Shown in pieces: positions 3,055 to 23,172 of a stretch of DNA of 33,277 nt. How positions within the stretch are numbered: the first letter of the stretch is position 1; each line of letters begins with the position of its first letter. The position numbers and the translations under genes were made by a program. The stretch is from Spirochaetaceae bacterium (GTDB lineage: Bacteria; Spirochaetota; Spirochaetia; B11-G9), in contig DAOWEB010000368.1 of assembly GCA_030638735.1 (NCBI GenBank), forward strand, positions 1 through 33,277, given 5' to 3'. Below the pieces are notes generated by a model. It was not told the DNA's origin and ran no database searches. It worked only from the letters and a program-made list of their open reading frames with translations.

Positions 3055-5316
3055 CTAATCCTTAACAGATATTACTATTTCATCATTTTTAATATCTGCT
3101 GTTGCAACTCCACCATCTTTCAGCTTTCCAAACAAAATCTCATCTACAAAAAAGTTCTTAATTTTATCTTCTACCATTCGGGCAATATTTCTTGCACCAA
3201 ACTCATAAGAGTAACCATGATCTGCAATCCATATTCTACAGGAAGAACTAAGTTCCAAAGTTACATTTTTCTCTGCAAGAAGTATAGAAAACTCTGATAT
3301 TTCTTTATCTACAATCTTGAGGATTACTTCATTTTCCAGTTTGTTAAATGAAATAATCTTATCCAGTCTATTTCTAAACTCAGGACTGAATGTTTTATCC
3401 ACTGCATCTTTTATAGCTTCATCGGTAATTTTATAATCACCGAAACCGATAAGATCACGACCTATATCCCTGGCTCCTGCATTACTTGTCATAATTAATA
3501 TAATATTTCTAAAATCAGACTTTCGTCCATTATTATCTGTAAGGGTTGCGTAATCCATAATCTGCAGCAGTATATTAAAAATATCAGTATGAGCTTTTTC
3601 AATCTCATCCAATAATAAAACTGCATGGGGTTCTTTTCTTACAAGATCAGTAAGAAGCCCGCCTTCTTCATATCCAACATAACCTGGAGGAGCTCCTACA
3701 AGCCTGCTGACAGTATGCTTTTCCTGATACTCACTCATGTCAAATCTATGAAGTTTTACCCCAAGGGTTTCTGCAAGCTGTCTTGCAAGTTCTGTTTTTC
3801 CAACTCCTGTTGGACCTGCAAAAAGAAATGATGCCACAGGTTTATCTTTCTTCCCAAACCCTGCTCTGGATCTCTTTATGGCCTGGACCACTGAATCTAC
3901 AGCCATATTCTGACCAAAAACCAGGTTTTTCAATTTATCTCCCAGATTCTGTAACTGATCAATCTCACTGCTTGAAACTGTCCGTTCAGGAATACCGGCA
4001 ATCCGTGCAATAACTTTTTCTATTTCTCCCTCATCGATTTTTGACGGTTCTTTATCTTTATCACCGGTACGGTATGAAAGGATCTGAAGCCAGGCACCGG
4101 CTTCATCAATAACATCAATAGCTGTATCCGGCTGATGCCGCTCACGCATATATTGGGAAGAAAGGGTCACAGCAGATTCAAGAGCTTTTTCTGTATATGT
4201 AACATTATGATAGGACTCATACTTTTCTTTTAGGCCATTCAGTATCTGAAGAGTTTCTTCCATTGATGTTTCTGGTACATTAATTTCCTGAAAACGTCTC
4301 GAAAGGGCACGATCCTTATCAAAACTTTTTTTATATTCAGAAAAAGTAGTAGATCCCATACAGCGAAGTTTTCCTGTTGCAAGTGCCGGTTTAAGAAGAT
4401 TTGATGCATCCATGGTTCCTCCGGATACAGCTCCGGCTCCCACAATTGTATGTATTTCATCTATAAAGAGAATAACTTTTTCCTCTCTTTTCAACTCTTC
4501 TATTATCTTTTTCATTCTTTCTTCGAAATCACCACGAAACTTGGTTCCAGCAAGAAGTCCACCCATATCCAGAGAAAAAATTCTATAGCCTTTTAGAATA
4601 TCAGGAACTTTGCCCTCTTCAATCCTCGCAGCCAGACCCTCTGCAATTGCAGTCTTACCTACTCCTGGTTCACCTACTAAAACAGGATTATTTTTTAACC
4701 GCCTGCAAAGAACCTGAATTGTACGCTCAATAATATCCTCCCGCCCAATAAGAGGTTCAAGCTCATCATCGGTTGCAGCCTTATTCAGGTTTCTGGTATA
4801 TAGTTCAATTGCAGACTTACGCTGTTTTTTTCCATTTGGTTCAGCAAAATCCTCATTATCTAAAAATTCTTCATCAGAAGGATTCAGAAAGTATTCGTCA
4901 GCAGTCCTGCTAATAGCCTTTAGAAGAGAATATCTGGTAAGACCTGCCTTGCGCATATAATATGACCCATGAAGAGATTCAATATCAAAAACCGATACAA
5001 GAATATCATTCAGATCAACAGTATTTTTAGAAGAAGTTTCAGTATGAAAAATTGCACTTTCTATTACACTTTGGAATCCCGCAGTCTGAACAGGGTCACG
5101 ATCTTCAATATAAGGAACCATTTTAGAAAGATAGGAATCTACATCCTTTTTAACACTTTCTATATCAACCTGACACTCATTAAAAATACTCTTTATTTCC
5201 TCAAAAAATAATGCAATATGAAGAATATGCTCAGGAGTAAGATATTCATGTTTACGCTTTTTTGCCTCAAGATAAGCTGCATTTAAAGCATTTTGAACTT
5301 CATCAGATATTTTCAA
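3055..5316 (-). CDS. clpA: ATP-dependent Clp protease ATP-binding subunit ClpA
   Basis: ClpA is the AAA+ unfoldase that feeds substrates, including ClpS-delivered N-degron proteins, into ClpP. The translation shows a Clp N-domain ([27 protein letters not shown]), AAA-1 with Walker A GEPGVGKT and Walker [10 protein letters not shown], and AAA-2 with GPTGVGKT and [10 protein letters not shown]. The LIGFG loop has the form used to dock on ClpP. I chose the TTG at 5316, not the ATG at 5385. The TTG has GGAG 7 nt upstream and gives about 753 residues, the usual ClpA length and N-terminus (LKISDEVQ). With this start the gene overlaps the end of clpS by 14 bp. clpP is not in the window. Confidence 0.95.
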
Positions 5317-13402: not shown

Positions 13403-14944
13403 TTACTTTGTATTCATCGATGCCAGGAACGCCTCATTATTCTTACTTTTACGCATCCTGTCAATCAGTAGTTCGATAATTTCCATATCATCCATAGGAT
13501 TAATTACTTTTCTTAAGACCCACATTTTATTCAGTGCATCCTCAGTAAGCAGAAGTTCCTCTTTCCTGGTACCGGACTTCTTTATATTGATAGCCGGATA
13601 GAGTCTTCTATCTGCCATTTTCCGATCAAGATTGATTTCCATATTACCAGTTCCCTTGAACTCCTCAAAAATAACTTCATCCATTCGGGATCCTGTTTCG
13701 ATCAGAGCTGTGGCAACAATAGTAAGACTTCCGCCATCCTCAATATTACGGGCAGCACCAAAAAACCTTTTTGGTTTATGAAGTGCATTGGAATCCACAC
13801 CACCAGAAAGTATTTTTCCGGAAGTAGGAACTGTTTGATTGTAAGCTCTGGCAAGTCTGGTAATAGAATCCAAAAGAATAACAACATCACGTTTATGCTC
13901 AACCATTCTCTTTGCTTTTTCTATAACCATTTCGGCTACCTGAACATGACGGGTTGCCTGCTCATCAAAAGTAGAAGCAATAACTTCCCCTTTTACACTG
14001 CGTCTCATATCTGTAACTTCTTCGGGTCTTTCATCGATTAGTAAAACAATAAGAAAAACTTCAGGATGATTAGTAGTAATTGCATTAGCTATTTTTTGAA
14101 GAAGAATTGTCTTTCCTGTTCTTGGAGGGCTAACTATAAGACCTCTTTGCCCCTTTCCTATTGGACAAAAAAGATTGATAAGACGGGTGGATACATTCCC
14201 ATTCAAAGTTTCAAGATCAAGACGTTCTTCCGGATAAAGGGGAGTTAAACTCTCAAAAGAAACCCGGGACTGTGCAACTAAAGGATCATCATCATTAACT
14301 TTCTCAACTCTAAGCATGGCAAAGAAACGCTCACCCTCTTTAGGTGGACGAATTTGACCATAAACAGTATCTCCAGTTCGTAAAATAAATAACCGAATTT
14401 GTGATGGAGACATATAAATATCATCAGAACCAGGCAAATAACTATTCTGAGGAGATCGGAGAAAACCGTAACCATCAGGAAGTATTTCCAAAGAACCATA
14501 GGCATAAATTATGCCCCCTTCCTGGGTATGGGCTTTTAAAATAGCAAAAATAACTTCCTGTTTCTTCATAGTCATTAAAGTATCAAGACTAATACCAAGT
14601 TTTTCACCCAGATCTCTTAATACAGGGACTGTCATCCTGGAAAGGTCATTAATACTTAATTTCTCTTTATTTTTATTATCAATTGGTTTGGGTCTGCTTC
14701 TCTGACCTGGCCGCGGCCTTGGTTTCCTCTTGGGAACTACCTTTCGTGGGGCTGCTGCAGTATTAGTTTTATCCTCAGTATTTACACCTTTTTCAGGATT
14801 TTCGCTAATCTCTGCTGAATGAGTAGAGACATCACCTTCATCCTTACTGGAAATTGTTTCCCGAATAAGTTCTACTCTAATTTTTTTTCTCTTTGGACGT
14901 GTAACTACTTCAACTTCTGAGGCTTCAGCTTCAATCTCCGCCAT
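13403..14944 (-). CDS. rho: Transcription termination factor Rho
   Basis: Rho is the hexameric RNA-translocating ATPase that ends transcription. The 513-residue protein has a Rho_N helical domain (about 96-140, [23 protein letters not shown]), a cold-shock-like RNA-binding domain (about 145-220, [15 protein letters not shown]) and the ATPase with Walker A PPRTGKT (273-279) and [14 protein letters not shown]. The Q/R-loop region [16 protein letters not shown] is intact. It is about 95 residues longer than the E. coli protein because of a basic, disordered-looking N-terminus rich in Lys, Arg and Pro ([16 protein letters not shown]). GAGGAAG precedes the ATG, with a good promoter upstream. Confidence 0.96.
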
Positions 14945-15106: not shown

Positions 15107-16363
15107 CTAACTATATTGCCACTGGGCACAACTGTCAAGCCTTTCAGGCATGGTCAATGCAGTTTCTGCCAATAACAATGCCGCAATTACAGTTTTTCTT
15201 CTAATCAAATCTCTGGAACCGGAAAATTTAAAGCTCAAAGCTACTGTTTTTGCAGCTTCATTTTTTACTGCAATCCAAACTTTACCTGTATCCTCATCTT
15301 TATCATTGGATCCGCCAGCATAACCTGAAACTGAAAGAGATAAGTCAGAACCTGAAAGTTCCATAACTCTGGTAGCCATTTCCTCTGTAACTTCTCTGGA
15401 AACAGCTCCATAAACTGTAAGAGTTTCCTCTTTAATTCCCAATATCTTAAGTTTTGACCTGTTAGTATAAGTTACAAGGGAACCCCATATAACTTTGGAA
15501 CTTCCAGGGATATCTGTAAGAAGAGTTCCAATTAGTCCTCCTGTAACTGACTCAGCAATACTAATTTTCCTTGAGTTTGATGATAAAGAGTTAAAAAGTA
15601 ATTCTGCAGCTGTCAAATTACCAATTATTACCAGTTCTTTTCCGAAAAAATCCTGGAGATATTTTAAGAACCGGAGTCGGCCCCCCTGGGTCCCCCCTTG
15701 AAGATAGAGGCTTATTTTATATGCTTCAACTCTTGTCCCCCAGGTAATATACCTGCTGTTATATGTGACACACGCATCTTCAAGACTTGATTCACATATA
15801 AGAAAACAGGATGCTGTAAGAGTCTCCGGTTGCTTAAGATTAAATTTTCCAATTATTCCAGGTATTACAGAATTTTCAAACATACTCCGCATTTCGACCG
15901 GAGGTCCGGGCAGACAAAATATAAGAGTACTGCCTATATAACCCGAAAAACCAGGTGCTGTACCGCATAGATTATGAAGAACAGTAAAACCTTCAGGAAT
16001 ATAGGCTTGTTTTTTTCGTGATTCATTAATTTTATCAGGAAATTTATTAAGTAAGCCAGTCCATATATCATTATCCAGAACCAAATCAACACCAGCTGCA
16101 TTTGCAATTATATCTCTGGTGATATCATCAGAAGTAGGACCCAATCCGCCGGTAATGATTACGAGATCAAGTTTATTTTTTCTGATTTCAATAAAAAAAG
16201 GAATATTTTCATTATCAGGAATGAGCACAATACTGTCGACACTAAATCCTATTCCTGATAATCTGGAACTTAAATATTTCCCATGACTATCCTGTATTTT
16301 ACCTGAACTTAACTCCGTACCTATAGCAATTATTGATGCTGTAAATTCTTTAGACACCACCAA
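15107..16363 (-). CDS. cinA: CinA family protein (molybdopterin-binding-like domain + PncC-like domain)
   Basis: CinA proteins act in pyridine nucleotide recycling: the C-terminal PncC-type domain deamidates nicotinamide mononucleotide, and the N-terminal COG1058 domain is linked to ADP-ribose pyrophosphatase activity. The N-terminal half shows AIGTELSSGKIQDSHGKYLS, TGGLGPTSDDITRD and FCLPGPPVEMRSMF. The C-terminal half shows IAESVTGGLIGTLLTDIPGSS and SLVTYTNRSKLKILGI. Two departures from usual: AESVTGG for AESCTGG, and SVSGYAGG where A(I/V)TGIAGPxGG is expected. Activity of the C-domain is therefore uncertain. The start is ambiguous (TTG 16363, GTG 16360 or 16357), each overlapping the upstream bactofilin. 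Confidence 0.88.
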   Translation of the reverse strand: MVVSKEFTASIIAIGTELSSGKIQDSHGKYLSSRLSGIGFSVDSIVLIPDNENIPFFIEIRKNKLDLVIITGGLGPTSDDITRDIIANAAGVDLVLDNDIWTGLLNKFPDKINESRKKQAYIPEGFTVLHNLCGTAPGFSGYIGSTLIFCLPGPPVEMRSMFENSVIPGIIGKFNLKQPETLTASCFLICESSLEDACVTYNSRYITWGTRVEAYKISLYLQGGTQGGRLRFLKYLQDFFGKELVIIGNLTAAELLFNSLSSNSRKISIAESVTGGLIGTLLTDIPGSSKVIWGSLVTYTNRSKLKILGIKEETLTVYGAVSREVTEEMATRVMELSGSDLSLSVSGYAGGSNDKDEDTGKVWIAVKNEAAKTVALSFKFSGSRDLIRRKTVIAALLLAETALTMPERLDSCAQWQYS

Positions 16364-16763
16364 CCGTCTTTTTAAGTTTTTCTACTCCTGCAGAAAAGAT
16401 ATCCACTGTTTTGGGATCTCTTATCATCTCGCATTTACCCTTAAAAACCACTCCATCAGCAATCCTTAATCTTGCTGTACGTATATTCCCAAAAACTTTA
16501 CCTGAAGTTAATATTTCCAATTTATCACTGGCAACAATATTTCCATGAACTACACCTGCTACCACTATGGAGCCAACCTGAATATTAGCTTTGATTACTG
16601 CACTGTCCTCAATATAGAGAGTGCCTGTAGATATAATTTCACCCTCAAGCTTTCCATTTATTTGAAGAGAATCTGTAAAACGCATTATCCCTGCAAAAAC
16701 TGTTTCCCGGCCAAGAGTAGTAGCCATTTTATTAGGACTGTTTTTATTAATTTTCTTTGACAT
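16350..16763 (-). CDS. Bactofilin (polymer-forming cytoskeletal protein), copy 1
   Basis: Bactofilins self-assemble into filaments without nucleotide and recruit cell-wall enzymes or set cell shape. This 137-residue protein has the central beta-helix pattern of repeating short strands (FAGIMRFTDSLQINGKLEGEI, GTLYIEDSAVIKANI, GSIVVAGVVHGNIVA, LEILTSGKVFGNI, LRIADGVVFKG) with short polar tails. It overlaps the start of cinA and lies downstream of the cyclase-tail gene. It differs clearly from the second bactofilin at 21669, so they are distinct paralogues rather than a recent duplication. Confidence 0.9.
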   Translation of the reverse strand: MSKKINKNSPNKMATTLGRETVFAGIMRFTDSLQINGKLEGEIISTGTLYIEDSAVIKANIQVGSIVVAGVVHGNIVASDKLEILTSGKVFGNIRTARLRIADGVVFKGKCEMIRDPKTVDIFSAGVEKLKKTVGGV

Positions 16764-16823: not shown

Positions 16824-16851
16824 GTAAGAACTCGATAAATCGAGCACCTAT
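16824..16851. repeat. 28-bp imperfect palindrome overlapping a stop codon
   Basis: The core ctcgat-aa-atcgag (16831-16844) lies inside a 28-bp element with gtaag...cctat ends. A second pair of arms, aataggtg (16809-16816) and cacctatt (16845-16852), encloses it. The TAG stop of the cyclase-tail gene (16848-16850) is inside the outer arm. Confidence 0.7.
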
Positions 16852-17069
16852 TTAGAGGTCATTACAAAGACACCATCCCAGTCTTCCGCAGGAGGGTTAT
16901 CAACATAGTGCTTACATCTGGCATAGTAAACCTGGGAAGGACCATCTTCAGAATCTATCTTAAGGGCTTCTGCAAATAATTTACAAGCACCTTTAAAATC
17001 TGAAAGCTTATATTTTTTTCTTCCCTGAGCAAATATATCCAGTAATTTCTTTTTATTTTCACTAATCAT
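16848..17069 (-). CDS. Small TPR protein with the C-terminal tail motif of adenylate/guanylate cyclases
   Basis: The 73-residue protein has one TPR-like hairpin (AQGRKKYKLSDFKGACKLFAEAL). It then has the sequence GPSQVYYARCKHYVDNPPAE followed by DWDGVFVMTSK. From memory, GPSxxYxxRC...PPxxDWDGV is the tail found after the catalytic domain of many class III cyclases in spirochaetes and related bacteria. Here it stands alone without a cyclase domain. Its ATG overlaps the stop of the response-regulator gene by 4 bp (ATGA), so the two are translationally coupled and may act together. No signal peptide. Function unknown; a stand-alone docking or regulatory module is plausible. Confidence 0.7.
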   Translation of the reverse strand: MISENKKKLLDIFAQGRKKYKLSDFKGACKLFAEALKIDSEDGPSQVYYARCKHYVDNPPAEDWDGVFVMTSK

Positions 17070-17797
17070 AATAATTCTCCATCCGGGTCATCTGACTGTA
17101 CAAAGTGCTTATGAATTCTCTGATCCAGTTCCTTTAAAAAGTCTCCATTTTTATTAGACTCAATCTCTTTGTCAGTCAACCTGGATATTTCTTCCTTAAA
17201 CTCATCCAGAGATACAATGGCCTTTTCTGCTTCTGTAGAGACAAAACTACAAAAATCAGCAGTAGAATCATCCATTGCAACGTCAGGATTTGATCTCGAC
17301 AAAATCTGCTCCATAGGCTCTCTTAATTGATTTAAAAAAAATAAAACCGATTCACTGAATGATTCTATCTGATCAAATCGTTGCTCTTTAACAAGATTCT
17401 GACGATGGATTTCTCTATTCTTTAATACCGCTCTAATCCGGGCTATTACTTCAGAAAAATTAAAAGGTTTGGTTATATAATCATCAACTCCAAGCTCAAA
17501 GCCTTCAATCTTATCCCGTACATCATCCATAGCAGAAAACATAATAATAGAAACATCTTTATACTCAGAATATGCCGGATCCTGTTTTAAAAGCCGCGTA
17601 ACCTGCCAGCCGGAGAGCTTAGGCATTACATTATCAAGAAGGATCAGATCCGGCTTGAATTCTGAAACCATCTCCAATGCTATAATTCCATTTTCTGCAC
17701 GCGCAACTTCAAAACCAAGTTTCCCGAGCATTACATCAAAAAAATCAAGATTACGGGGTTCATCATCAACAATTAGAATTTTTGCTTTTTCTTCCAT
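17066..17797 (-). CDS. Response regulator with receiver domain and unknown C-terminal domain
   Basis: Residues 1-125 are a receiver domain with the acidic pair D11/D12, phospho-acceptor D55 (LLDNVMP), S88 at the switch position (MFSAMDD) and K110 (ITKPF). The remaining 118 residues are helical, have no recognisable DNA-binding or enzymatic motif, and may be an interaction domain. No histidine kinase is in the window. The ATG has no ribosome-binding site, and a promoter-like TTGACA lies 29 nt upstream, so the mRNA may be leaderless. Coupled to the cyclase-tail gene downstream. Confidence 0.88.
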   Translation of the reverse strand: MEEKAKILIVDDEPRNLDFFDVMLGKLGFEVARAENGIIALEMVSEFKPDLILLDNVMPKLSGWQVTRLLKQDPAYSEYKDVSIIMFSAMDDVRDKIEGFELGVDDYITKPFNFSEVIARIRAVLKNREIHRQNLVKEQRFDQIESFSESVLFFLNQLREPMEQILSRSNPDVAMDDSTADFCSFVSTEAEKAIVSLDEFKEEISRLTDKEIESNKNGDFLKELDQRIHKHFVQSDDPDGELL

Positions 17798-17882: not shown

Positions 17883-19529
17883 CTATTTATTGAGCTGTAA
17901 ACGTAAATAAATTGATTTTATTATACCTATTAGTATTAAAACAAAAGCAAGAATAATTGATGTATAAGCAAACCAGTCACCCAGGGCGGTATAAATAGTT
18001 GATCTTTCTGTATAAACAGGAACATCTCCAACCAAATAATCTTCAGTAAAGGGTTCAAGAAGAGAAATTATTCTTCCATCAGGATCAATTATTCCCGTCA
18101 TACCTGAATTAGCACTGCGAACAAGACTTCTCCTGTTTTCTATTGCCCTGAAAACAGCCATCTCCAGATGCTGCATCTGTGAAGACAAAGCACCTGACCA
18201 GGAATCATTTGTCAGGTTTACAATAACATCAGCACCATTTCTTACAAAGTTTCTCGATAAATATCCAAAAACATCTTCAAAACATATTGGAGTCGAAAAT
18301 TTTACACCACCAGTTTCGAACACAGTATATTCAGTGCCCTTTTCCCAAAAATGTAGATCATGATTGATAAGAAACTGATATACACCAGGAAGAATAGACT
18401 CATAGGGAAAGTTTTCTGTAAAAGGAACCAGATGGATCTTTCTATAGGTATTTTTAAGCTTTCCATCCTCATAGAGTAATACTGCATTATAATCCTTCTT
18501 GTTATATGAACCATCAGATAATACAGGAGGCAGATTAGGATTTTTCAACTGAACATCATCATTACCAAAAAGATAGGGAACATCTTGTGTTGCAAGAAAC
18601 GTTTTAAGATCATTTACAAGCGCATAGCGCTGCTTGTCAGTCCTGTACCTTGAATGCCAATCAACACCTGGAACAAAAGCCGTCTCTGACCAGATAACAA
18701 TATCCGGATTTTCTTCTACAGCCTTCAGACTTAAATCCTTCAGGATATGAAAATTCCGTTCGTATGTTGTTTGGCCCCCCTCCCAGGAGTCAGAATTATG
18801 CTGAATAAGGGCAACCTTCCATTTAGGAGAATCAGAATAATCTGTCATTACCAGAAAACCGAATATCAAATTCAATACAACCAATCCACCATAGAAATAA
18901 CTATCCACCCGATGGATCCTAAAAAAATCATTAAAACCATTTATTCCATTTTTTAAGGCATTTCCCAAATAAGCGGAGGGCAAAATTACTAAAAACGAGA
19001 CGCCCCACACACCGGTTACAGATGCGATTTGTATAAATGGTTTAATAGTTGACATTGAATAACCAATTATTCCATACGAATACCCTACAAAGCCTTTTGT
19101 GCGCAGATACTCATAAGCTACCCAGCATAACGCCTGAACCAGATATCCATACCTGGGGAAAAGCTTGTCAGCAAGCTTCAATACAGGGAATAAAATTATA
19201 AAATAAGTTGCGTAAATTAGCGGAACAATAATAATTGTTAAGGGATGAAAAGCATAAAGCCAGTAATTAAAGAGTGCATACGTAATAGCACCATAAAAAG
19301 CACCATAGGGAACAATAACCTTCCAGCTGCTTGTATGTACAACAATAAAAACAGGAATTATCGAAATAAAAGCTATTGGTGCAATACCCCAGGTAGATAC
19401 TACACTGGGAAAGGCTAATGAAAATAATACTGAGGATAAAACAAGTAATAGCGACTCGACAGTTGCTTTTTTAAGAATCATTCCAATATTATTTTTTTTA
19501 ATATTTTTTTCTGAATCAGAAGAATACAT
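17883..19529 (-). CDS. lnt: Apolipoprotein N-acyltransferase
   Basis: Lnt adds the third acyl chain to lipoproteins at the inner membrane. The 548-residue protein has about seven hydrophobic helices (residues 27-230 and the last 30) and a nitrilase-type domain with the triad E283 (VIWSETAFVPG), K365 (YRKIHLVPF) and C417 (TPICFED). The NLTNDSW motif is also present. I start at the ATG at 19529 rather than the TTG one codon upstream. It follows hup by 3 nt and is probably translated with it. Its presence fits a lipoprotein-rich diderm such as a spirochaete. Confidence 0.94.
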   Translation of the reverse strand: MYSSDSEKNIKKNNIGMILKKATVESLLLVLSSVLFSLAFPSVVSTWGIAPIAFISIIPVFIVVHTSSWKVIVPYGAFYGAITYALFNYWLYAFHPLTIIIVPLIYATYFIILFPVLKLADKLFPRYGYLVQALCWVAYEYLRTKGFVGYSYGIIGYSMSTIKPFIQIASVTGVWGVSFLVILPSAYLGNALKNGINGFNDFFRIHRVDSYFYGGLVVLNLIFGFLVMTDYSDSPKWKVALIQHNSDSWEGGQTTYERNFHILKDLSLKAVEENPDIVIWSETAFVPGVDWHSRYRTDKQRYALVNDLKTFLATQDVPYLFGNDDVQLKNPNLPPVLSDGSYNKKDYNAVLLYEDGKLKNTYRKIHLVPFTENFPYESILPGVYQFLINHDLHFWEKGTEYTVFETGGVKFSTPICFEDVFGYLSRNFVRNGADVIVNLTNDSWSGALSSQMQHLEMAVFRAIENRRSLVRSANSGMTGIIDPDGRIISLLEPFTEDYLVGDVPVYTERSTIYTALGDWFAYTSIILAFVLILIGIIKSIYLRLQLNK

Positions 19530-19532
19530 CAA

Positions 19533-19838
19533 TCAATCTCTAAGATTCCAGGCAATCTCTTTCAACTGTTTACCTGGTCTGAAAACTGCAACGCCATGAG
19601 TCTCCACAGGTATTATTTCACCGGTTCTGGGATTACGGGCTCTTTCGCGCCCCTTTCGGGTACGTATCTCAAAAGTTCCGAAACCCCTTAATTCTATTAC
19701 CTGATCAGAACTGAGAGCATCTTTCAGATGATCAAACAACTTATCAATTACTTTATGAATATCTGAACGATCAATGTCCAGTTCTTCGTAGATATTATCA
19801 ATAATTTCTGCTTTTGTAAGCTTACTGTTTGATTCCAT
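19533..19838 (-). CDS. hup: HU/IHF-family DNA-binding protein
   Basis: A nucleoid protein that binds and bends DNA as a dimer. The 101-residue sequence has the helical dimerisation part (LTKAEIIDNIYEELDIDRSDIHKVIDKLF) and the DNA-contacting arm with RNPRTGEIIPV, followed by VAVFRPGKQLKE. The extended N-terminus (MESNSK) and an acidic patch differ slightly from E. coli HU. GAGGAAT precedes the ATG. It lies 21 nt after rpsT and directly upstream of lnt. HU versus IHF subtype is not resolved. Confidence 0.93.
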   Translation of the reverse strand: MESNSKLTKAEIIDNIYEELDIDRSDIHKVIDKLFDHLKDALSSDQVIELRGFGTFEIRTRKGRERARNPRTGEIIPVETHGVAVFRPGKQLKEIAWNLRD

Positions 19839-21183: not shown

Positions 21184-21669
21184 TTATTTTAGAAGATTAA
21201 CAATAAGTCCATTAATTTCTTCAATTTTTTCAAGAATAAAGAGCTTATCCGACTGATTCTGTAATACACCTGCAGCCAAACGCTCAAGCTTCTCATCCAC
21301 TACTCTGATTATTGTATACTTTTTTTGTTTTTTCAATGGATTAAAATTTGATCCGGCACTTGTATCGACTTCAAGAGAATTCTTTACTACAAATCTTAGA
21401 AATTTAGATACCGCTCCTTTATAAACCTTTACATTTTGAAGAGTGGGAAGTTCTTTTAAGTTCTCTCCGGCTTCATGAATACTATCCAGAAGATCTTCCA
21501 GATCCAAATCCGAATAATCAATGGAGTCAAAACCTACAGCTTGATTTTTGTCAATATCCAAAAGTGATGAAAAGCTTAACTTTTTAACTTCACTTTTATC
21601 TACTTTTTTTCTGGAAGTACTTGAATTTTTTTTCCGGTATGATCTACCGGAAGCAGTAATTTTTTCCAT
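21184..21669 (-). CDS. YaaR-family protein (DUF327)
   Basis: The 161-residue protein has a basic, Ser-rich disordered N-terminus (about 1-30). An alpha-helical domain follows with the YaaR pattern: LEDLLDSIHEAGENLKELPTLQNVKVYKGAVSKFLRFV, then KKYTIIRVVDEKLERLA. Function is unknown. In Firmicutes yaaR lies close to yaaT, as here, which supports a shared role. Its start overlaps the bactofilin stop by 1 bp (TAATG), indicating translational coupling to a cytoskeletal gene. The family match is by motif memory, not by search. Confidence 0.8.
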   Translation of the reverse strand: MEKITASGRSYRKKNSSTSRKKVDKSEVKKLSFSSLLDIDKNQAVGFDSIDYSDLDLEDLLDSIHEAGENLKELPTLQNVKVYKGAVSKFLRFVVKNSLEVDTSAGSNFNPLKKQKKYTIIRVVDEKLERLAAGVLQNQSDKLFILEKIEEINGLIVNLLK

Positions 21670-22109
21670 TACTGCCCGATTTTTGCAGGGTTATACTTTT
21701 CGAGTCCTTCCCCTTCTATGAAATTCGATGATAATTTGGAGTTATCGGGAGCCGGAGCTTCATCGATACTTGCAATCAGACACACCCCGTTAAGAATGAC
21801 ACCATCTTCGGAAATGAGACGGGGAGTTGAAACATTACCTATCAGCATACCTGTTGATAAAATAACAACCTTCCCCTTAGACACAATATCTCCCTTGACC
21901 ACACCGCCAATAACAACTGTATCTGCTTTAATTGTACATTCCGCCCGACCGTTTTTGCCTATTAATACTTTCCCGTCTGTTCTGATATTACCTATAAAAT
22001 CACCATCAATACGCAGTAATCCATTAAGTTCAAGATCTCCGACAAACCTTGTACCATCTCCGACAATAGAATTTATAAATACACCGCTTTTTCCAAGATG
22101 ATCACTCAT
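21669..22109 (-). CDS. Bactofilin (polymer-forming cytoskeletal protein), copy 2
   Basis: The 146-residue protein has the bactofilin beta-helix repeat (FVGDLELNGLLRIDGDFIGNI, GKVLIGKNGRAECTI, DTVVIGGVVKGDIVS, KVVILSTGMLIGNVS, LISEDGVILNG) flanked by short polar tails. It sits directly downstream of a membrane-anchored M23 peptidase and is coupled to YaaR. Bactofilin next to an M23 endopeptidase recurs in bacteria where the pair sets cell curvature or helicity, and bactofilin affects helical shape in Leptospira. A role in spirochaete body shape is a reasonable inference. Confidence 0.92.
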   Translation of the reverse strand: MSDHLGKSGVFINSIVGDGTRFVGDLELNGLLRIDGDFIGNIRTDGKVLIGKNGRAECTIKADTVVIGGVVKGDIVSKGKVVILSTGMLIGNVSTPRLISEDGVILNGVCLIASIDEAPAPDNSKLSSNFIEGEGLEKYNPAKIGQ

Positions 22110-22146: not shown

Positions 22147-23172
22147 TTAATGAATACCAGAATTAATATCGAGAAATCTCAGAGGATCAACCACCTGAGA
22201 GCCTATTCGAACTTCAAAATGAAGATGCTGCCCTGTAGATAAGCCTGTATTCCCCATTGTACCCAACTTCTGACCCTGGGTTACAGTATCACCTTCTTCA
22301 ACATAAACCTTATCCATATGTGCATATTTAGTACTATACCCATAAGAATGACGTATTATAACATAATTACCAAAACCCATTGCATCGTACATTCTCTCTA
22401 CAACCTTTCCATTTGCGGCTGCATTAATTAAAACACCACGTCTATATGAGGCAATATCTATACCTTTATGCAAATACCACTGTCCTGTAAAAGGGTGTAT
22501 TTCCGGTCCAAAATAGTTAGTAATTCTGCCAATACCTGAACCAACAGGCCATACAGTAGGTAAATCTGCAAGAAGATCTCCCTGGGAAGCAAAAATATCT
22601 GTAACCATTTCCAGAGACTCTCCGGACTTACTTAAAAATGTTTTTAAACTCTGAAGGTCTGTAATTTCCTTTAAAGTACCACCATCCTGTTCCTCAATAT
22701 CATAAAAAGAAGCCAGATCACCACCCGCATTAGAATCCGGATTGGTACTGTTTACTTCTATTCCCAGGATTCCCAGAGTACTGTTCAAAGAAGTCTCAAA
22801 ACTTCGGGAGACCTTTCTAAGCTCATTCACCTCATCACGCATAATCTCAAGACTGGCACTGGTATCCTTCAATGCTTCTGTTTTTGTACTCAGTAATTGA
22901 GAAAGTCCGCTGAACTGTGTACTGAAAACAAAAAAAACAAGAATAATTCCCGAAAGAATAAAAGAGATAAATACAAGTGAAAATACTGAAATTTTAAAAT
23001 TGAAGATTTTCTTCTCTGAGTGAGGAATCAGCATAACAGTAAAACGCTGCTTACCCAGTTTTATTACTTTTTTATAAAACCCTGCAACAGCAGAACCTAT
23101 CATGCTGAAATGTCTGATAAAAAAATCCAAAACTATATTTTCAACTTTTTTATAGTTATGAGCCGATGACAT
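22147..23172 (-). CDS. Membrane-anchored M23 (LytM) peptidoglycan endopeptidase
   Basis: The 341-residue protein has one transmembrane helix (about 60-83), a short coiled coil (about 95-130), a linker and a C-terminal LytM domain. The domain retains the metal site: H235 and D239 (HKGID), H285 (YAHM) and the HLHFE pair (H316, H318). It is predicted to cut peptide cross-links in the periplasm. The ATG has GGAGGAG 5 nt upstream, and a strong promoter lies 25 nt further on. Gene order M23-bactofilin-yaaR-ricT suggests the cytoplasmic N-terminus (about 59 residues) may contact the bactofilin filament. Confidence 0.93.
   Translation of the reverse strand: MSSAHNYKKVENIVLDFFIRHFSMIGSAVAGFYKKVIKLGKQRFTVMLIPHSEKKIFNFKISVFSLVFISFILSGIILVFFVFSTQFSGLSQLLSTKTEALKDTSASLEIMRDEVNELRKVSRSFETSLNSTLGILGIEVNSTNPDSNAGGDLASFYDIEEQDGGTLKEITDLQSLKTFLSKSGESLEMVTDIFASQGDLLADLPTVWPVGSGIGRITNYFGPEIHPFTGQWYLHKGIDIASYRRGVLINAAANGKVVERMYDAMGFGNYVIIRHSYGYSTKYAHMDKVYVEEGDTVTQGQKLGTMGNTGLSTGQHLHFEVRIGSQVVDPLRFLDINSGIH

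Follow-up and report, generated by a model that had tools for sequence, protein, structure and literature searches.

Why does a spirochaete encode as a separate small protein the tail that some of its class III cyclases carry at their C-termini, and with which partner would such a free tail work? The question is raised by tail73, a gene in the window analysed here (the whole stretch of 33,277 nucleotides from a Spirochaetaceae bacterium). An earlier note on this DNA had seen in its product either a docking module between a phosphorelay and cyclases or the relic of a lost cyclase. The features concerned are the following:

19533..19838, minus strand: HU-family DNA-binding protein, upstream cluster member (named from sequence, not by Pfam)
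17883..19532, minus strand: lnt, upstream cluster member (named from sequence, not by Pfam)
17066..17797, minus strand: response regulator of 243 aa, receiver domain PF00072 (E=1.6e-26)
17076..17080, minus strand: GGAGA, Shine-Dalgarno-like site of tail73, a few bases 5' of its ATG
17066..17069, minus strand: ATGA, 4-bp stop/start overlap of regulator and tail73, read from the sequence
16848..17069, minus strand: tail73, stand-alone 73-aa ORF with ATG start (MISENKKK...DWDGVFVMTSK)
16350..16763, minus strand: bactofilin, next gene downstream of tail73 (PF04519, E=1.5e-26, 93 bits, cut-off 27.9)
15107..16363, minus strand: frequent cluster member which we take to be cinA-like (named from cluster membership, not by Pfam)
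13403..14944, minus strand: rho, end of the conserved cluster (named from sequence, not by Pfam)

tail73 and the tails of class III cyclases

As judged from the reading frame, its conservation, an AlphaFold model and dN/dS ratios, tail73 consists of one TPR-like hairpin, a capping helix and a C-terminal PPxxDWDGVFVMTSK tail. The model (pLDDT 87.6) has helices at residues 4-21, 25-38, and 43-57 and an extended segment at 58-73, with pLDDT <50 at 71-73; in Foldseek it weakly resembles TPR units such as Sgt2 and PP5 (E 0.4). With Pfam, the single sequence reaches 15.9 bits for TPR_2 (PF07719 and relatives, cut-off 27) and shows no match to the PF00211 catalytic domain, and the profile of 60 orthologues matches consensus TPR proteins with E down to 7e-39 (a many-repeat design).

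This is a real gene under selection. The short form is conserved, as all 80 orthologues retrieved from Spirochaetia (scan with one genome per species) are exactly 73 aa long, and a 60-sequence sample contains 26 invariant positions, including G16-R17, D42-G43-P44, R51, P59-P60, D63-W64-D65-G66-V67-F68-V69, and the terminal K73. In comparisons within the genus for which dS allowed an estimate, dN/dS was 0.02-0.13. In 67/80 orthologues the start is preceded by a motif of Shine-Dalgarno type, which control positions show in 20% of cases, and in the window it falls within the last codons of the regulator gene. The overlap with a receiver-domain gene, described in the earlier note, is confirmed by the shared ATGA; the same -4 start relative to the regulator end is found in 39/80 orthologous loci, the rest lying within about 80 bp. 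The homology to cyclase tails is what would speak for a relic of a lost cyclase. The constant length, an own start with a Shine-Dalgarno-like site, a dN/dS of about 0.1, the phylum-wide conservation and the lack of any cyclase remnant in the reading frames upstream of the start refute this reading, as do, for a pseudogene in general, the fixed ends, the purifying selection and the clean upstream frames. In a single locus of family f24, where tail73 was otherwise not detected, the gene is frameshifted just before DWDGV (L188 in G582, frame 4002-4274, minus strand), with PPPMIGTAF replacing PP.DWDGVF, representing either ongoing decay or an assembly error.

The identification of the protein as the TPR-plus-DWDGV tail of cyclases has held along its whole length. 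All three further matches of tail73 in its own genome at E <1e-4 are C-termini of class III cyclases (E = 8.5e-11, 5.9e-8, and 7.1e-5), and no such tail is present at the other cyclase loci examined there. PF00211 was found in the 10/10 fused-tail proteins examined by Pfam, which were drawn from many families and most of which also contain CHASE2, HAMP, 7TM or receiver/kinase input. Fused tails score 27-76 bits with the tail profile and end 0-7 residues from the C-terminus in 25/25 cases; this terminal, exactly ending position of the motif in both forms suggests that a free C-terminus matters. Stand-alone and fused forms fall broadly apart in a 73-residue tree, which is poorly resolved and unrooted, and tail73 evolves more slowly than the fused tails. 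Within the class Spirochaetia, fused tails are present in 134/140 genomes with tail73 vs 94/255 genomes without it. Two genomes deserve mention: G043 (loci L042 and L161), which is 96% complete, keeps tail73 while its only cyclase is tail-less, and in G191 (L164 and L168) two cyclase ends resembling the tail were found, both of which break off ahead of WDGV and have no DWDGV. In both genomes, tail73 itself may be the only remaining carrier of the full motif.

Among 395 Spirochaetia genomes, counted from the listed matches, tail73 is present in 140, a regulator orthologue in 148, and both in 127, so that tail73 occurs without the regulator in 13/140 genomes and the regulator without tail73 in 21/148. 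A phylum profile search added at least 110 further Spirochaetota genomes with tail73 outside this class, from about 25 families; named carriers are Alkalispirochaeta alkalica, Gracilinema caldarium, and Candidatus Marispirochaeta associata. When genome contigs were scanned with a pattern for the short form, the best 80 matches were all from Spirochaetota. Outside the spirochaetes, a plasmid search gave only cyclase-borne or unannotated tails plus one TPR protein, and an alphaproteobacterial Ruegeria cyclase also bears the tail at its C-terminus.

Neighbours of tail73 across the phylum

In Spirochaetia, the cluster reads HU - lnt - regulator - tail73 - bactofilin - (cinA) - rho, a conserved unit larger than the regulator-tail73 pair of the earlier note, in which the bactofilin, the truly constant neighbour, had not been noticed. 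It lies directly downstream of tail73 in 88/88 Spirochaetia loci, and the regulator lies upstream in 85/87; among eligible loci, rho is found in 72/72, HU in 67/69, and lnt in 63/72. Of 85 loci, 66 have cinA, sometimes as its C-terminal domain alone. As housekeeping genes share this neighbourhood, adjacency by itself proves little within Spirochaetia. Outside the class, however, the bactofilin is still the next gene in 38/38 loci with enough sequence (one locus cut by a contig end, and L188, which belongs to Spirochaetia, were left out of this set), while the upstream genes are mostly unrelated, coding for polyprenyl synthetase, aldo/keto reductase, flagellin-like protein, TIM, YbbR, MscS, TetR, TruA, and CysS, among others. 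The coupling to the receiver gene claimed in the earlier note stands for Spirochaetia, although the two genes are separable there, as the genome counts above show. In the other classes the regulator is usually not adjacent, and it precedes tail73 in five loci of families f48 and f61. One of these five loci (L176) even has HU-lnt-regulator-tail73-bactofilin, so the order is probably older than the class split, and the ancestral arrangement appears to have been HU-lnt-RR-tail-bactofilin-(cinA)-rho.

Losses from this arrangement take several forms. The regulator abuts the bactofilin where tail73 has been cleanly lost (e.g., L140), and many genomes keep the bactofilin without tail73. In loci that lack the regulator (L036, L042, and L151-L154), tail73 follows lnt or HU and is still placed before the bactofilin. 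In two loci of family f10 (L135 and L136, from G016 and G074), lnt and rho still flank a regulator gene, with neither tail73 nor a recognisable bactofilin there. Upstream of tail73 in G125, tandem regulator-like matches (contig C72, 2779-3162 and 3324-3998) perhaps correspond to a duplicated or split regulator. A natural regulator-tail fusion, which would have counted strongly as evidence, was also considered, and the 319-aa open frame of L024/L070 was rejected as such, as it is out of register and the regulator ends with the usual -4 overlap.

In the regulator itself, D11 and D55 of the receiver are invariant in the alignment, and D12, S88, and K110 are conserved in at least 90% of sequences. 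Its AlphaFold model (pLDDT 84.9) combines the receiver, which is the part covered by the best PDB matches, with a predicted long helical hairpin (helices 114-168, 177-214, and 220-236) whose shape resembles a dimerisation hairpin; no Pfam family and no known output domain were matched by these C-terminal ~110 residues. Regarding the bactofilins, those of this locus in Spirochaetia (e.g., 16350-16763) mostly end in (V/I)D(I/V)F(S/A)xPxxxLK, an ending found with or without tail73 and missing in the other classes inspected. The window contains a second bactofilin (21669-22109, minus strand) directly downstream of an M23 peptidase-like gene (22147-23172, minus strand), and pairing of bactofilins with M23 peptidases has been described in other bacteria.

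Candidate partners and competing explanations

Bactofilins are present in 232/234 genomes with any tail vs 61/161 tail-less genomes. This co-occurrence is not independent evidence, because it is confounded by lineages that lost tails, cyclases, and bactofilins together: except for one incomplete genome, the bactofilin-free genomes tested were also without cyclases, and in families f3, f4, f9, and f18 of Spirochaetia the tested genomes had neither bactofilins nor class III cyclases. Evolutionary rates have also been compared. After correction by rho, the correlation of distance matrices was 0.49 for tail-regulator, 0.49 for regulator-bactofilin, and 0.26 for tail-bactofilin, the background with lnt being 0.26-0.30 and the permutation not phylogeny-aware. 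The first two values exceed this background, and the tail-bactofilin value does not rise above it (0.30 in this comparison), so a direct contact of the two proteins is not supported by rates, and the rate correlation is too unspecific to single out the direct partner. Adjacency points to the bactofilin as partner of tail73; the regulator is favoured by its tight coupling and by the correlated rates. A regulator that contacted both proteins on one scaffold would fit the two kinds of data alike, and such a chain is the model proposed here.

On this basis, it is tentatively proposed (probability about 0.42) that tail73 is an adaptor which works with the adjacent bactofilin through a docking surface that cyclases share in cis, and which the regulator probably controls. 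The TPR hairpin and the free C-terminal DWDGV...K peptide would form the docking surface that many cyclases carry C-terminally, and tail73 would be placed on a bactofilin-based scaffold. In Spirochaetia and some other lineages, tail73 is presumably co-transcribed with the orphan response regulator, judging by gene order, and the phosphorylated regulator might switch or load it. Cyclases with a tail might occupy the same site in cis, which would couple their placement to the state of the scaffold. All physical contacts, the direction of regulation and any effects on cAMP or shape are what we infer, and the conserved docking module of the earlier note survives as a possible reading of the sequence. 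The broader version, in which phosphorelay switch, free cyclase tail and bactofilin filament would form a phylum-wide module placing and tuning cAMP-producing cyclases on the cytoskeleton, is unlikely as it stands.

Other explanations distribute the same evidence differently. If tail73 acted in trans on class III cyclases under the response regulator, binding the catalytic dimer or displacing the cis tail and thereby altering cAMP, the bactofilin would be a mere neighbour. Such a role is in agreement with a whole-length homology to cyclase tails only, with the excess of fused tails in tail73 genomes, and with the tight coupling to the regulator, which also gives the best rate correlation of tail73; nevertheless, it is unlikely, since the bactofilin adjacency is stricter than that of the regulator and is kept across unrelated contexts, and since tail73 persists in G043 beside a tail-less cyclase and in G191 beside cyclase ends without DWDGV. 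The opposite possibility is a plain accessory factor of the bactofilin, regulating polymer or membrane, in which the likeness to cyclase tails reflects ancestry only, with no present signalling. The invariant adjacency and the loss of the regulator from loci where tail73 stays would be explained in this way, but the DWDGV...K end has been kept in both forms, suggesting a common partner, and with the tail-bactofilin rates at background level we regard this role as distinctly unlikely. Still more improbable is that a functional tail73 has nothing in common with bactofilin and regulator except membership in a housekeeping super-operon. The conservation of HU, lnt, and rho as further neighbours agrees with this, yet the super-operon is mostly gone outside Spirochaetia and the tail73-bactofilin pair remains. 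The adaptor proposed above would, if true, mean that second-messenger enzymes and a cytoskeletal scaffold have one docking module in common. The position of tail73 between a phosphorylation switch and a cytoskeletal gene hints that signalling and cell architecture are connected in spirochaetes in a way not recognised before.

Relation to known systems

The regulator-tail73-bactofilin module combines domain types that are known, but no description of this combination was found: the literature searched yielded no paper mentioning 'DWDGV' or describing such an operon, and no published bactofilin locus in which either a response regulator or a TPR/cyclase-tail protein is encoded. As no described function was found for the DWDGV tail of cyclases, tail73 offers a tractable stand-alone version of it with a likely partner gene. 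With the tails of class III adenylate/guanylate cyclases (CHASE2-, HAMP-, 7TM- or receiver-linked) it has in common the TPR hairpin, the RC..Y...PP..(D/N)WDGV...K signature and the C-terminal ending; unlike these cyclases, it is a separate gene of fixed 73 aa without sensor, membrane or catalytic domain. It is also comparable to TPR adaptor proteins, given the match of its family profile to consensus TPR and the likeness of its model to Sgt2/PP5 units, although it has one repeat plus a cap, falls below the Pfam cut-off as a single sequence and ends in DWDGV. Finally, the PF04519 bactofilin downstream of tail73 occupies the same HU...rho locus as bbbA of Borrelia, which lies between hbb and rho and whose product was put off to another study by the authors in 2026 as functionally divergent (PMC13393453). 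In Borrelia, hbb and rho flank bbbA directly, without tail73 or regulator. The adjacency to tail73 described here suggests a possible role for bactofilins of the LbbA/BbbA type.
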